This document shows positions 4,930-14,091 of a stretch of DNA of 25,795 nucleotides, one piece after another (positions within the stretch are counted from its first letter, which is position 1; each line of letters starts with the position of its first letter). Position numbers and translations under genes: made by a program. This DNA is from a virus: IMG/VR virus record IMGVR_UViG_3300042907_000375, positions 1-25,795 of that record, one strand, 5' to 3'. The notes below the pieces were generated by a model. The model searched no databases and was not told the DNA's origin. It worked only from the letters and a program-made list of their open reading frames with translations.

Positions 4930-5660
4930 AGTCTGTTAATCTCCTTCATAATAAAATCATATTCTAGCGAATCTTTCTCGCAGTGTAAATAGACACGAAG
5001 CAGCATGAGTATCAGAAGATAATCATCATTTGCAATTGGAAACTTACTGAGAACGTGTTCCTGAATGTTCAGCAACTTTACATCAAGCATGACAGGATCA
5101 CGACGAAGAAACCACTTGCACTCCAAATCTTGTCTCAGCTTCGCAATATCAAACACCCAGGAATCATACTTCAACGTCACAGCATCAATGAAATAGAAAC
5201 GACCTGAAGTATCATGGATAATGTTTTCTAGTGTCATATCTCCATGATATACCGACTTGGGTAATATCTTAGGCAGTTTGTCAATCAACTCTTCTTTGGT
5301 GAATGGAAACATACCATCTTCTATCCATGATAACATCTCATGGTACACGTTAGTATAGTCTTTGTCAACACTTTTCGATGCGAACATTGACAATGTGTTC
5401 ACTAAAAACTCTCTGAGGTCTTTGATCGAATTGTTAAGAAGATAGTTTCTCATATCTGTTCCATGAATATACTCCATGTCCAGAATTGTTCCATCATAGT
5501 GATAGATTTTAGGAACGTCAACATAACCAAGAAGTGCAGTCAATCTTTCATAGTTGCGATCAACATTCTCTATCTTGCGAACAAACATATGGTCTTCTGA
5601 CTGCATTAAGGCCACAGTCGAACCAGAATGCCCTTTGAGTTTCTTTAAGAGTTTTTCCAT
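4920..5660 (-). CDS. APH/choline-kinase-fold phosphotransferase
   Basis: This 246-residue protein has the kinase catalytic motif of the aminoglycoside phosphotransferase/choline kinase superfamily. VYHGDMTLEN holds the Brenner-type HGD-x4-N with catalytic Asp and metal-binding Asn, and FYFIDAV supplies the second metal Asp. SWVFDIAKLRQDL resembles the helix that follows in small-molecule kinases. The N-terminal lobe is short, with a likely Lys in MFVRKIEN. It probably phosphorylates a sugar or small alcohol that the downstream nucleotidyltransferase then activates, an arrangement reminiscent of licA-licC. The acceptor is not recognisable. The ATG at 5660 overlaps the previous gene by 16 nt, and its own stop overlaps the next start. 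Confidence 0.8.
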   Translation of the reverse strand: MEKLLKKLKGHSGSTVALMQSEDHMFVRKIENVDRNYERLTALLGYVDVPKIYHYDGTILDMEYIHGTDMRNYLLNNSIKDLREFLVNTLSMFASKSVDKDYTNVYHEMLSWIEDGMFPFTKEELIDKLPKILPKSVYHGDMTLENIIHDTSGRFYFIDAVTLKYDSWVFDIAKLRQDLECKWFLRRDPVMLDVKLLNIQEHVLSKFPIANDDYLLILMLLRVYLHCEKDSLEYDFIMKEINRLWK

Positions 5661-7224: not shown

Positions 7225-8107
7225 ACTTGGCCCTGATCTTATCAGCCAGGCCTGATACGCGATCATACTGGTGAACAATGCGGAATGGAATACCATCGCT
7301 ATTGCTTACAATGCCGTCATCATCGATAGTGGGTTGATTGCAAAGATACTTGGTCTGATACATAAGCTGTGCAGTCGGATCGTTGTTCTGACCAATGTCA
7401 CCTGCTCCAGATGCAATAGCACCAAGAGTTGTACCAAGATTGACTGCCCAACCAGAATCATTACTGGTGAATAGTGTTTGATCTTTGAAGATACCCATAT
7501 TGAGCAAGAAGTTATATACGGCCTGATCAACAATTGAAATAGGGCGATTGACACTCAATTGTAGTAAGAGATGGACCAAGTCGCGCACAATGTCGTGCTT
7601 GCCTGCAATTACGCCGACATTATTGATTTCATTATCCTTCATCTGATTGTGGAAGAAAGGTCCAAAAGCCTGTAGATAATTGTTGTTACCCCAAGGTTCG
7701 TCCTTATACTTCAGGCCTTCGCCTGCTGCGATAAGTTCTGGAGACTTATCTTCTGACCGCAAGAAAGTCTGAGGATTCATCTGAAAGACAACATCACGAA
7801 CATCGGTAGCGATCACATAGTCATACTTCTCTTTTGCTTCATTGAGAACATTCCAGATATGAAAGAAGCGTTCAACATGAGGCGGCATCTGGCTGTTAGA
7901 AGTATAATTGCCCTCTTCATCTTTCTGGCCATATGCAAGAATACTAACACCCTTTTCTGCGATCTTACCAAGCTCTTGAATTGTAATATTGGTTGTGACA
8001 AGCATGATATCGCCATCGAATCCACTTCTCTGAATAGAATTGATCCAATACTTGATATCGTCATACTTGTATCCTGAGGCGCCGCCAATAATTAGGTCTT
8101 TAGCCAT
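7214..8107 (-). CDS. GT-A type glycosyltransferase with TDVRDVVF motif
   Basis: This 297-residue soluble protein begins KDLIIGGASGYKYDDIKYWI and has a central acidic motif, YDYVIATDVRDVVFQMNP (about 95-112), that looks like the DxD-type metal/nucleotide-sugar site of GT-A enzymes. NNVGVIAGKHDIV and SIVDQAVYNFLL follow in the order seen in such transferases. The C-terminal IVHQYDR may supply the late His. It sits between a GT2 and a GT10 gene. The ATG at 8107 has GGAG 7 nt before it and overlaps the GT2 stop by 16 nt. Donor and acceptor are not predictable. Confidence 0.78.
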   Translation of the reverse strand: MAKDLIIGGASGYKYDDIKYWINSIQRSGFDGDIMLVTTNITIQELGKIAEKGVSILAYGQKDEEGNYTSNSQMPPHVERFFHIWNVLNEAKEKYDYVIATDVRDVVFQMNPQTFLRSEDKSPELIAAGEGLKYKDEPWGNNNYLQAFGPFFHNQMKDNEINNVGVIAGKHDIVRDLVHLLLQLSVNRPISIVDQAVYNFLLNMGIFKDQTLFTSNDSGWAVNLGTTLGAIASGAGDIGQNNDPTAQLMYQTKYLCNQPTIDDDGIVSNSDGIPFRIVHQYDRVSGLADKIRAKYDD

Positions 8108-8907: not shown

Positions 8908-9870
8908 TTACTTAAGCGGAATAAGACCCTTGTCTACGAGATAGCCATCCTCGCCAATAGCATCTTCACTCTTGTATTCTTCCATAAACTTCTTCAAGTC
9001 CGGATTAGATTCCAGATGTGAAGTCTTGAAGTATACATAAAGCTTACGTGAGATAGGATATTCACCAGCAGCGATTGCATCATATTCAGGAACAACACCA
9101 TTAACAGTAGTGCCTGAGATTGCATTTGCATTCTGTTCAAGGAAAGAGAATCCGAAGATACCTAAAGCCTTAGGATTAGCCTGAATCTTCTGAACGATTA
9201 GATTGTCATTCTCACCAGCTTCAACATATGCACCGTCTTCACGAACAGAATGACAGAATGATTTTGCATCTTCTGGTGATACGATGATGTTGTTTTTCTT
9301 AATGACAGACTTACATTCCTTTTCAAATACCAATTCAATAAATGAATCGCGGGTACCTGAAGTTGGCGGCGGGCCTAGAACTTCGATTTTGTCAGCAGGA
9401 AGATCATCACGAATGTCCTTCCATGTCTTAGCAGTATTCTCTTTAAAACCACCATCCACGAAAACATACTTGGCTAGAGCCTTGTAAATATCTTCGGTTG
9501 TTAGTTTCATATCGACATGATCCTTAGATGCAGCTAGGACAATAGCATCAATACCAATTTCAATGACTTCTGTTCCCTTAACGCCAGCCTTAGCACAAGC
9601 CTCAACTTCTTCCTTCTTCATCTCGCGCGAAGCATTAACTGCATCAGGAGTATCTGCGCCATCACCAGCACAGAACAACTTAATGCCACCACCAGTACCA
9701 GTAGATTCAACGATTGGTGCAGATACACCATTCTTCTTAGCAAACTGTTCTGCTACAGCGGTTGTGAAAGGATAAACGGTAGATGAGCCGACGATGCGGA
9801 TTGCATCACTGGCAAGTGCGGGCGCAATAGATAGACCTAGTGCGGCGGCTATAACTAATAGTCTCTTCAT
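8908..9870 (-). CDS. pstS: Phosphate-binding periplasmic protein PstS
   Basis: This 320-residue substrate-binding protein of the PstSCAB phosphate ABC importer starts with a signal peptide (MKRLLVIAAALGLSIAPALA, cleavage likely after ALA). The mature part begins AIRIVGSSTVYPF, with the phosphate-contacting GSST loop, and continues with ESTGTGGGIKLFC and GPPPTSGTRDSF, the conserved second-lobe loop. Host PstBCA would have to serve as its partners. Phage pstS is known from cyanophages and pelagiphages, where it is thought to sustain phosphate uptake during infection. Start: the ATG at 9882 is part of the ribosome-site region. The ATG at 9870 follows GGAG by 6 nt and gives the clean signal peptide. 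Terminators lie on both sides, so it is probably a single-gene unit. I saw no clear Pho box. Confidence 0.94.
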   Translation of the reverse strand: MKRLLVIAAALGLSIAPALASDAIRIVGSSTVYPFTTAVAEQFAKKNGVSAPIVESTGTGGGIKLFCAGDGADTPDAVNASREMKKEEVEACAKAGVKGTEVIEIGIDAIVLAASKDHVDMKLTTEDIYKALAKYVFVDGGFKENTAKTWKDIRDDLPADKIEVLGPPPTSGTRDSFIELVFEKECKSVIKKNNIIVSPEDAKSFCHSVREDGAYVEAGENDNLIVQKIQANPKALGIFGFSFLEQNANAISGTTVNGVVPEYDAIAAGEYPISRKLYVYFKTSHLESNPDLKKFMEEYKSEDAIGEDGYLVDKGLIPLK

Positions 9871-9882
9871 ACACTTCTCCAT

Positions 9883-9913
9883 AAAAAACAGAGGGAAACA
9901 ATTTCCCCTCTGT
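9883..9913 (-). terminator. Rho-independent terminator between the small gene and pstS
   Basis: On the minus strand ACAGAGGGGAAA (9913-9902) pairs with TTTCCCTCTGT (9898-9888) with one bulged G, followed by six T residues (9888-9883). It ends only about 3 nt before the pstS ribosome binding site, so it isolates pstS from the hsp20 transcript. Confidence 0.88.
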
Positions 9914-9965: not shown

Positions 9966-10118
9966 TCATAGCCAATTACTCTTCTCATTGTAGGACTTAC
10001 GGTCCCACTCACGCTGAAGCCATTCTAAGTGAGCTTGATCGGTAGCTTGACAAAGATAATCATACATGCGTTGTTGTTCACTCTTTCGAGTGAATAGCTT
10101 CTTCAGTGTTCTTATCAT
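9966..10118 (-). CDS. Small 50-residue protein, DUF3563-like
   Basis: A 50-codon frame begins with an ATG overlapping the hsp20 stop (TAATG), so it should be translated with Hsp20. The peptide is basic at its N-terminus (MIRTLKKLFTRKSEQQ) and then reads YDYLCQATDQAHLEWLQREW. That resembles the small proteobacterial DUF3563 proteins (YLAxAxDxxDLExRxRxxDR). Function of that family is unknown. Length, coupling and phage-like codons support a real gene. The family call is from memory and tentative. Confidence 0.6.
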   Translation of the reverse strand: MIRTLKKLFTRKSEQQRMYDYLCQATDQAHLEWLQREWDRKSYNEKSNWL

Positions 10119-10618
10119 TATTTCTCGCCGTATTTCTCTGATAAGAACTGCTTCGTAGCTTCGCCGTTATGATCAGCTGGCTTTTCACCAATATTGATCT
10201 TCTTAGGCTTCTTGTCTTCTGGAATGAAGCGTTCAAGCCAAATCTTTAGCATACCATTGATAAGGTCTGCATTCTTAATTTCAATTGTATCGGCCAGAGC
10301 GAACTGGCGAGTAAATGCGCGTTCTGCAATTCCCTTGAAGATATAATTGTCGTCGGTGTCGTTTGTATGAATATTGCCCTTTACGGTAAGTTTACCGTCC
10401 TCTAACTCAAGTTCTAGATCCTGCTTACCGAAACCAGCAACAGCGATTTCAATAACGTAGGTGTTTTCACTAGTCTGTCTGATATTGTAAGGAGGATAAG
10501 TTGGAATCTTAGGCATTGATTCGCTGAGTTCAGCGATCTTCTTTAAGATGGGCTCAAAACCGACAGTGGTGTTGAATTGCTTGGCGAAAGAAAAGGGGTC
10601 GTAATTTAACTTGTGCAT
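10118..10618 (-). CDS. hsp20: Small heat shock protein Hsp20 (IbpA type)
   Basis: This 166-residue alpha-crystallin-domain holdase binds unfolding proteins and passes them to DnaK/ClpB. The domain runs from YPPYNIRQTSENTYVIEIAV (about 41-60) through GFGKQDLELELEDGKLTV, FKGIAERAFTRQFALADTIE and NGMLKIWLERFIPEDKKPK. It is close to class A IbpA proteins of proteobacteria, with a longer C-terminal tail (EKPADHNGEATKQFLSEKYGEK); INIG stands near the usual IxI anchor. Hsp20 is a common auxiliary gene in T4-like cyanophages and may help virion or host protein folding during infection. It has its own promoter and a leader of about 150 nt with a ROSE-like hairpin over the ribosome binding site, so heat-induced translation is likely. 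Confidence 0.96.
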   Translation of the reverse strand: MHKLNYDPFSFAKQFNTTVGFEPILKKIAELSESMPKIPTYPPYNIRQTSENTYVIEIAVAGFGKQDLELELEDGKLTVKGNIHTNDTDDNYIFKGIAERAFTRQFALADTIEIKNADLINGMLKIWLERFIPEDKKPKKINIGEKPADHNGEATKQFLSEKYGEK

Positions 10619-10771
10619 ATGTAACTCCTATTAAGCAAGTTGTTTATATCTCTTCCCATTAGGCGAAGAGTGGAGCGGGAATGAGGTTTGACACTCACAT
10701 CACCTTGGGGGTGCCAAGGCATTTTCATTAAACTATCCCGCAAATGTGAGTACGCATTACTCATTCTCACA
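10619..10771 (-). promoter_or_regulatory. ROSE-like RNA thermometer in the hsp20 leader
   Basis: The predicted leader is about 153 nt and folds by eye into four stem-loops. I: TGTGAG/CTCACA (10771-10745). II: GCGGGA/TCCCGC (10741-10736 with 10680-10675) enclosing CCTTGG/CCAAGG (10719-10703). III: CTCTTC/GAAGAG (10670-10650). IV: 10641-10623. In hairpin IV AACTTGCT pairs with AGGAGTT, which contains the Shine-Dalgarno AGGAG 6 nt before the ATG. The pairing needs a G opposite G and one unpaired T in TTGCT, exactly the UYGCU-AGGA arrangement of ROSE elements in rhizobial small heat shock genes. Known family: the last hairpin melts on heating and frees the ribosome site. Assignment is by eye, without folding software. 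Confidence 0.78.
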
Positions 10772-10777
10772 CTGGTA

Positions 10778-10806
10778 TATATAACACTTCTGGTCTGAAA
10801 TGTCAA
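10778..10806 (-). promoter_or_regulatory. Housekeeping-sigma promoter of hsp20
   Basis: TTGACA (10806-10801), 17-nt spacer, TATATA (10783-10778). The predicted start is near 10771, at the base of the first leader hairpin. The -35 box begins 3 nt past the stop of the fibre gene. A TATATAC heptamer (10781-10775) overlaps the -10 box. Confidence 0.8.
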
Positions 10807-13686: not shown

Positions 13687-14091
13687 TTATTCTTCCTTGC
13701 GTTTCTTGCCTATGTTGTATTTAACTACAAGGTTCCATTCGCTCTTTTCTTTATGAGAAATGATTTTGATATGGGACAAAGGAGCTACAGGCACTGCACT
13801 TTTACTTTCATCTACTAGATCAACTAGTTCCCATTCATATAGAAGATTTGCTATTGTATTGAGACGACCTCTATCATCGTCGGTAAATTCAGACTGTTTT
13901 CCGTCTAACAGAAACAGTTGCTTAAAATGGACAATGTAATACTTGCCTTGTTTATGTAATATGTGGCAAGACTGATAAAGAGTCTTTTCTTTTTTGGAAG
14001 CCACGCCCATGCGCGATAAAGTTTCACGCACCTTCAAAAAATTATCAGGATCTGGTAGCGTCACCTCCACTAATTCGTTTATGTCTAACAT
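13687..14091 (-). CDS. regA: RegA translational repressor
   Basis: This 134-residue protein is homologous to T4 RegA, which binds early phage mRNAs at their initiation sites and blocks ribosomes. Aligned from memory, DNFLKVRETLSRMGVASKKE and LYQSCHILHKQGKYYIVHFK match T4 blocks DFLKVKETLTRMGIANNK and LYQSCHILQKKGLYYIVHFK almost residue for residue. ISHKEKSEWNLVVKYNIGKK matches the C-terminus. The chosen ATG at 14091 adds six residues to the T4 N-terminus but has AAAGGTGG upstream. It overlaps gene 62 by 47 nt, keeping the T4 order 44-62-regA. Confidence 0.95.
   Translation of the reverse strand: MLDINELVEVTLPDPDNFLKVRETLSRMGVASKKEKTLYQSCHILHKQGKYYIVHFKQLFLLDGKQSEFTDDDRGRLNTIANLLYEWELVDLVDESKSAVPVAPLSHIKIISHKEKSEWNLVVKYNIGKKRKEE

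Follow-up and report, generated by a model that had tools for sequence, protein, structure and literature searches.

A short, two-hairpin ROSE-type element, very probably an RNA thermometer, in front of a viral hsp20 gene

The small heat shock gene hsp20 of a virus with T4-like replication genes is preceded by a leader whose core is very probably a short, two-hairpin ROSE-type RNA thermometer, opened by heat and controlling translation of Hsp20. The whole stretch of DNA analysed, referred to here as the window, is a 25.8-kb virus record (25,795 nt); its strongest DNA similarity to any named phage, approximately 67%, is to the clamp-loader regions of Prochlorococcus and Synechococcus phages. 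The structure, conservation and covariation of the element, its specificity for hsp20 and its likeness to bacterial short ROSE elements were all observed computationally. A terminator-like hairpin between hsp20 and pstS suggests that the hsp20 transcript is single-gene. The gene directly 3′ of hsp20 and this hairpin (8908-9882, minus strand) is phosphate-binding-protein-like (Pfam PBP_like_2) and, judged by its position in related phages, would be of the PstS type.

The hsp20 leader lies on the minus strand (10806-10619) and contains, from 5′ to 3′, a promoter, hairpin 0, a tRNA-Gly-like fold that is itself branched, hairpin I and hairpin II (Table 1). Transcription is predicted to start near 10771, resulting in a leader of approximately 153 nt; the leader of about 150 nt from a clear promoter and the four stem-loops given in a preliminary description of this DNA are thereby upheld, the promoter being conserved in relatives. 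The TTGACA and TATATA hexamers are separated by 17 nt and are located directly 3′ of the stop of the upstream gene, and the pair was not listed by a simple promoter scan of the window because the second hexamer lacks the final T. In the 120 distinct leaders for which hairpin I was mapped, a pair consisting of TTGACN, 16 to 19 nt and a TATA-like element was present in 33 and a TATAWAWA-like box in 98; in 77 of these 98 the box is positioned 0-9 nt 5′ of hairpin I, so that in such minimal relatives the mRNA would begin at the thermometer. Some members of the window's clade have longer leaders.

Table 1 Location of the hsp20 gene and of the elements of its leader in the window
Feature	Position	Strand	Basis or remark
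hsp20, 166-aa small heat shock protein	10118-10618	-	Pfam HSP20, E=1.2e-17
Terminator-like hairpin with T run, 11-pair stem	9888-9913	-	Between hsp20 and pstS; consensus scan
-35 element TTGACA	10801-10806	-	Sequence; present in most window-clade leaders
-10 element TATATA	10778-10783	-	Sequence; TATATATA or TATAAATA in relatives
Hairpin 0, optional module, conserved loop containing UGCGUAC	10743-10773	-	Two-sided stem changes in relatives (by eye)
tRNA-Gly-like element, optional module	10671-10741	-	Encoded CCA end abuts hairpin I
Hairpin I, CUCUUC-G-CC-UAAU-GG-GAAGAG, unpaired G before CC:GG	10650-10670	-	6 of 8 pairs with two-sided changes in 60 diverse phage leaders
Hairpin II, predicted ROSE-type thermosensor, AACUUGCU-UAAU-AGGAGUU	10623-10641	-	Motif conservation, covariation, model R2
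Anti-Shine-Dalgarno U(U/C)GCU motif (UUGCU)	10634-10638	-	Unpaired G at 10636
Shine-Dalgarno AGGAG, masked in hairpin II	10625-10629	-	Sequence

ROSE-like elements are defined by a U(U/C)GCU sequence that is paired imperfectly with the Shine-Dalgarno (SD) sequence in the last hairpin (PMC3669281), and a bulged G is typical of this hairpin (PMC11182007). In the window, the U(U/C)GCU motif is imperfectly paired with the SD in the 3′-proximal hairpin, ACUU[G]CU pairing with AGGAGU, and the unpaired G at 10636 may be regarded as bulged or, in the terms of the ROSE literature, as a G opposite G. The element also stands before a small heat shock gene with a promoter upstream, which places it in a predicted 5′ UTR, and shares with the class a structure of two to four hairpins that is conserved with covariation. 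The proposal that AGGAG is masked by UUGCU around an irregular G, in a ROSE-type element transcribed from an upstream promoter before a phage hsp20 gene, thus stands, the core being kept throughout related leaders with the single exception described below. The G and C of U(U/C)GCU were invariant in 46 diverse leaders, and the motif was present in all 45 leaders with GGAG (45/45). The covariance model R2, trained on 60 phage leaders only, matched the window at 10618-10670 (E=6.2e-14), the window itself being a member of the training set.

Close relatives of the window Hsp20 are encoded on 80 contigs (60-95% identity), and every sufficiently long relative leader carries, before hsp20, hairpin I together with AACUYGCU...AGGAGUU, or with the same arrangement having CA/UG in place of CU/AG. 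Counted with an SD-to-start distance relaxed to take in cyanophage leaders, both hairpins are present in 41 of the 42 distinct leaders of related hsp20 genes; in the lone exception, the start had been placed within the gene at the end of a contig. The hairpin II motif exceeds chance, as these 41 of 42 hsp20 leaders compare with 2 of the 290 starts of other genes at those loci and with 2.2% of leaders following dinucleotide shuffling. The covariation score was 0.366 for 43 distinct close-relative leaders, relative to 0.157 for shuffled and at most 0.138 for slid controls, and 0.485 for 60 diverse phage leaders (0.137 shuffled, at most 0.133 slid), the latter alignment having been fitted to the model and so leaning towards the model's structure; MAFFT misaligned hairpin I across distant phages. 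Most of the covariation comes from hairpin I, which shows at least four pair types at most stem positions. The covariation of hairpin II itself is limited because this hairpin is constrained, and nearly fixed, by the Shine-Dalgarno sequence: among close relatives, one pair shows two-sided and two pairs show one-sided changes. Where free to do so, hairpin II does vary, with U-G to C-G beside the unpaired G, U-A to A-U above it and A-U to G-U towards the base, whereas the unpaired G itself is invariant among the leaders compared.

A scan of viral contigs for the last hairpin alone plus a start codon, performed without gene information, indicated how far the element is tied to hsp20: among the matches listed, 79 of 107 last-hairpin sites precede a gene matching the hsp20 profile, and most of the remaining 28 sites seem to reflect chance or truncated genes. 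A match at 1454 (plus strand) of L167 places AACUUGCU...AAAGGAGU before a dnaK-like gene in a viral contig, which may be chance, and a match at 8007 (minus strand) of L174 combines a UGCC-UUCG-GGG hairpin and a ROSE-like hairpin before a 71-aa frame that gave no match to the hsp20 profile. The element is visible in isolate phages of Pelagibacter, Methylophilales, Synechococcus, Prochlorococcus and Agrobacterium; the motif is absent from the hsp20 leader of S-TIM5. In the leaders of some HTVC008M relatives (L232-L239), AACUGUCU...AAGGAGGUU replaces the U(U/C)GCU motif and possibly forms a masking hairpin with another mismatch. Of 14 phage isolates searched as whole genomes with R2, 11 gave exactly one match, located at the hsp20 leader; seven of the 11 (Melnitz-3, Syn33, Mosig, S-CREM1, HTVC008M, HTVC115P and P-RSM1) are outside the training set and had E-values of 3.7e-7 to 0.003. 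No R2 match was seen in the whole genomes of S-TIM5, HTVC103P and Atu_ph07; Atu_ph07 scored 27.9 bits when its locus was searched within a smaller set.

The nearest bacterial Hsp20 genes found belong to aquatic proteobacteria and others, and a loose pattern detected the motif in 57 of 64 distinct bacterial leaders, many of which share the UGCC...GGG form of hairpin I. The hsp20 leader was the sole R2 match in 9 of 14 bacterial genomes (E 1.5e-9 to 0.034), at positions that agree with independently located hsp20 loci. The short ROSE motif is carried by many aquatic bacterial hsp20 leaders (L333-L408). The phages probably acquired hsp20 along with its leader from bacteria, as a single unit that many of them have retained.

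The Rfam covariance test that had been proposed for the leader returned no ROSE match: the ROSE families gave none in the window at their cut-offs or at E up to 10, with ROSE_3 (RF02523, cut-off 43 bits) unmatched in the window leader and the rhizobial ROSE (RF00435, cut-off 45 bits) unmatched in the window, where the best ROSE_3 score, 13.7 bits, fell elsewhere, at 5042-5104. At the same cut-offs, Rfam detected no ROSE element in 20 bacterial hsp20 loci, most of which carry the motif, and the miss in the window therefore says little and is not a refutation. Below its cut-off, ROSE_3 scored the hsp20 leaders of Melnitz-3, C48C1, Atu_ph07 and P-RSM1, together with a single site on G007, the contig that carries L159, with scores for the other phage leaders of 21.8-34.1 bits, the best being Melnitz-3 (34.1 bits, E=1.6e-6 for the genome). 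The link between the window and ROSE_3 runs through intermediates only, R1 and R2 joining the window to C48C1 and Melnitz-3, both of which ROSE_3 scores. The likeness to rhizobial ROSE elements seen in the preliminary description was not sustained, as the core belongs with the short two-hairpin elements found at Pseudomonas ibpA (ROSE_3) and at the hsp20 genes of many aquatic proteobacteria. The Rhizobiales host proposed with it is likewise unsupported: the same element is present in phages of Synechococcus/Prochlorococcus, Pelagibacter, Methylophilales and Agrobacterium, and the clamp loader encoded in the window stands at a similar distance (55-58%) from its counterparts in Synechococcus, Prochlorococcus and Stenotrophomonas phages.

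Nearest-neighbour estimates, which ignore non-canonical pairs, placed the folding energy of hairpin II at -4.7 kcal/mol (10 °C) and -2.7 kcal/mol (25 °C), rising to approximately 0 near 45 °C. Without the unpaired G the hairpin was locked in these estimates: its values were -6.7 kcal/mol at 25 °C and -4.1 kcal/mol at 42 °C, and SD opening at 42 °C was 0.2%, relative to 22% with the unpaired G. When the coding sequence was included, the plain minimum-energy fold of the window and of some relatives preferred an AACUUG:CAAGUU pairing with codons 3-5; the CAAGUU partner is absent from many relatives, in which hairpin II is kept. In some leaders SD opening did not rise with temperature, and competing folds blurred the trend in longer stretches; the minimum-energy folds of long leaders changed with the chosen ends and were ranked below covariation. 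In E. coli, the short ROSE elements of Pseudomonas act as thermometers in which the second hairpin melts and the first does not, and deletion of G39 from the P. aeruginosa element strongly lowers induction (PMC3669281). Folding and these experimentally tested relatives argue strongly that heat would open the phage element and that translation would be controlled in this way. Transcription from the phage promoter (10806-10778) would yield an hsp20 mRNA with the approximately 153-nt leader, in which hairpin II, at ordinary temperature, would pair AGGAG with UUGCU around the unpaired G and exclude ribosomes. Heat would then melt the weak hairpin II but leave the stabler hairpin I intact, allowing Hsp20 to be produced without new transcription.

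The two upstream modules are optional. Hairpins resembling hairpin 0, with UGCGUAC within the loop and matched stem changes, are present in leaders L001, L006, L022, L066, L074, L077, L114 and L125, and the clear cases of this hairpin are located at hsp20 leaders. The tRNA-Gly-like fold with its encoded CCA is positioned between promoter and thermometer in the window and in L007, L013, L020, L024, L032, L039, L040 and L053. All 15 of 15 acceptor, D and T pairs are kept in these 9 sequences, with little covariation; the D loop is short, the T loop has 8 nt, and the anticodon arm is one base shorter in 5 of 9 sequences (a 6-nt loop by our reading). A standard tRNA gene at this position was rejected, as the fold scored 25.9 bits against the Rfam tRNA cut-off of 29 (91-base search) and ARAGORN found no tRNA there; the fold also went unreported in eight relatives searched as whole loci. 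Host tRNA-processing enzymes could, speculatively, free a two-hairpin mRNA by cutting the tRNA-like fold.

Several other explanations of the leader were considered. A chance resemblance around an ordinary Shine-Dalgarno site, which could draw on the 2.2% of shuffled leaders in which the motif arises, has a negligible probability and is refuted by the comparative data, the motif being kept in related leaders and in distant phages with covariation. A transcription start within the leader itself, at the T4-late-like TATAAACA (10648-10641), is very improbable; it would remove hairpin I and part of the anti-SD strand and leave hsp20 unregulated; TATAAACA does resemble the late box TATAAATA, but the stretch is a variable linker in relatives and the conserved box is located 5′ of hairpin I. 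T4-like phages use hairpins at ribosome binding sites and the repressor RegA for timing, and hairpin II could accordingly be a non-thermal masking hairpin that times a late gene, or a site for RegA. In S-CRM01, regA directly precedes hsp20; in the window, the gene at 13687-14091 seems to be RegA-like, judged solely by resemblance and by its position in related phages. This explanation is nevertheless improbable, since the promoter box is 5′ of the hairpins in most leaders, so that transcripts carry the hairpins, the element is specific for hsp20 and common to phages and bacteria, and mere masking would not need an invariant unpaired G.

The leader could alternatively be primarily a binding site for Hsp20, with free Hsp20 repressing its own translation until it is titrated away by protein that is unfolded or aggregated, for instance unassembled capsid protein, and with temperature acting only indirectly. 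E. coli IbpA represses its own translation via the ibpA 5′ UTR, for which it needs R93, a residue largely dispensable for chaperone activity (PMC10474464). R100 of the window Hsp20 aligns with R93, and 188 of 198 phage-contig Hsp20 proteins have R at the aligned position; the residue is, however, common in alpha- and gamma-proteobacterial IbpAs (PMC10474464) and may simply be inherited. To primary control by Hsp20 binding we assign a substantial minority of the probability, which includes the case in which autorepression and the thermometer both act, as the two are not mutually exclusive. Since the arginine needed by IbpA for autorepression is kept in phage Hsp20, autorepression is a reasonable second layer on the thermometer: by analogy with E. 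coli IbpA, phage Hsp20 may also bind its own leader, and repression that unfolded protein could relieve is a likely companion mechanism.

A 2010 comparison of 16 marine T4-like cyanophage genomes listed hsp20 in the core common to all of them and guessed at a role in capsid scaffolding (PMC3037559); when and why the phage protein is made is described as still open (PMC5028025). A conserved thermometer would provide a concrete rule for Hsp20 production that is testable in cultured phages, and would link infection to water temperature. The conserved element also indicates that the Rfam ROSE models miss many bacterial and phage members. A wider reading, offered tentatively and rather doubtful as a whole, is that ROSE-type thermometers are standard and long-maintained on hsp20 across T4-like and other aquatic phages, making viral Hsp20 responsive to heat and, perhaps, to unfolded capsid protein, and that in the window clade the tRNA-Gly-like fold with its CCA can be cut by host tRNA-processing enzymes, freeing the two-hairpin mRNA.

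In the literature searched, few phage RNA thermometers are described and none is of the ROSE type, in agreement with the preliminary description, which knew of no phage ROSE element. The known examples, lambda cIII, the SP-beta blyA fourU element and a predicted gut-phage sigma-70 thermometer (PMC4166951, PMC10586365, PMC11182007), resemble the window element in placing a temperature-dependent RNA structure in a phage mRNA, but involve other genes and structures, none being described there as ROSE-type on hsp20. The enterobacterial ibpA element ROSE_2 (RF01832) has the same last-hairpin motif (CUCGCU...AGGAG in L216) but a different upstream hairpin, and R2 gave no match at the L216 ROSE_2 site. 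The rhizobial multi-hairpin ROSE (RF00435) likewise precedes a small heat shock gene and has the U(U/C)GCU motif and a masked SD in its last hairpin (PMC4166951, PMC3669281), whereas the phage core has two hairpins and its extra upstream modules are of other kinds. ROSE_3 (RF02523) of Pseudomonas ibpA (PMC3669281), like the phage core, consists of two hairpins, spans approximately 60 nt and precedes a small heat shock gene; hairpin I carries UGCC...GGGU together with an unpaired G, and hairpin II sets U(U/C)GCU against the SD. It differs in that the phage elements are located in phage genomes under phage-type promoters and have a shorter, AU-rich hairpin II, and in that the window adds hairpin 0 and the tRNA-like fold and its leader receives no score from the Rfam model. 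The window core (10670-10619) is a genuine short, two-hairpin ROSE-type element in a phage, its kind known and its phage setting new relative to the literature searched.
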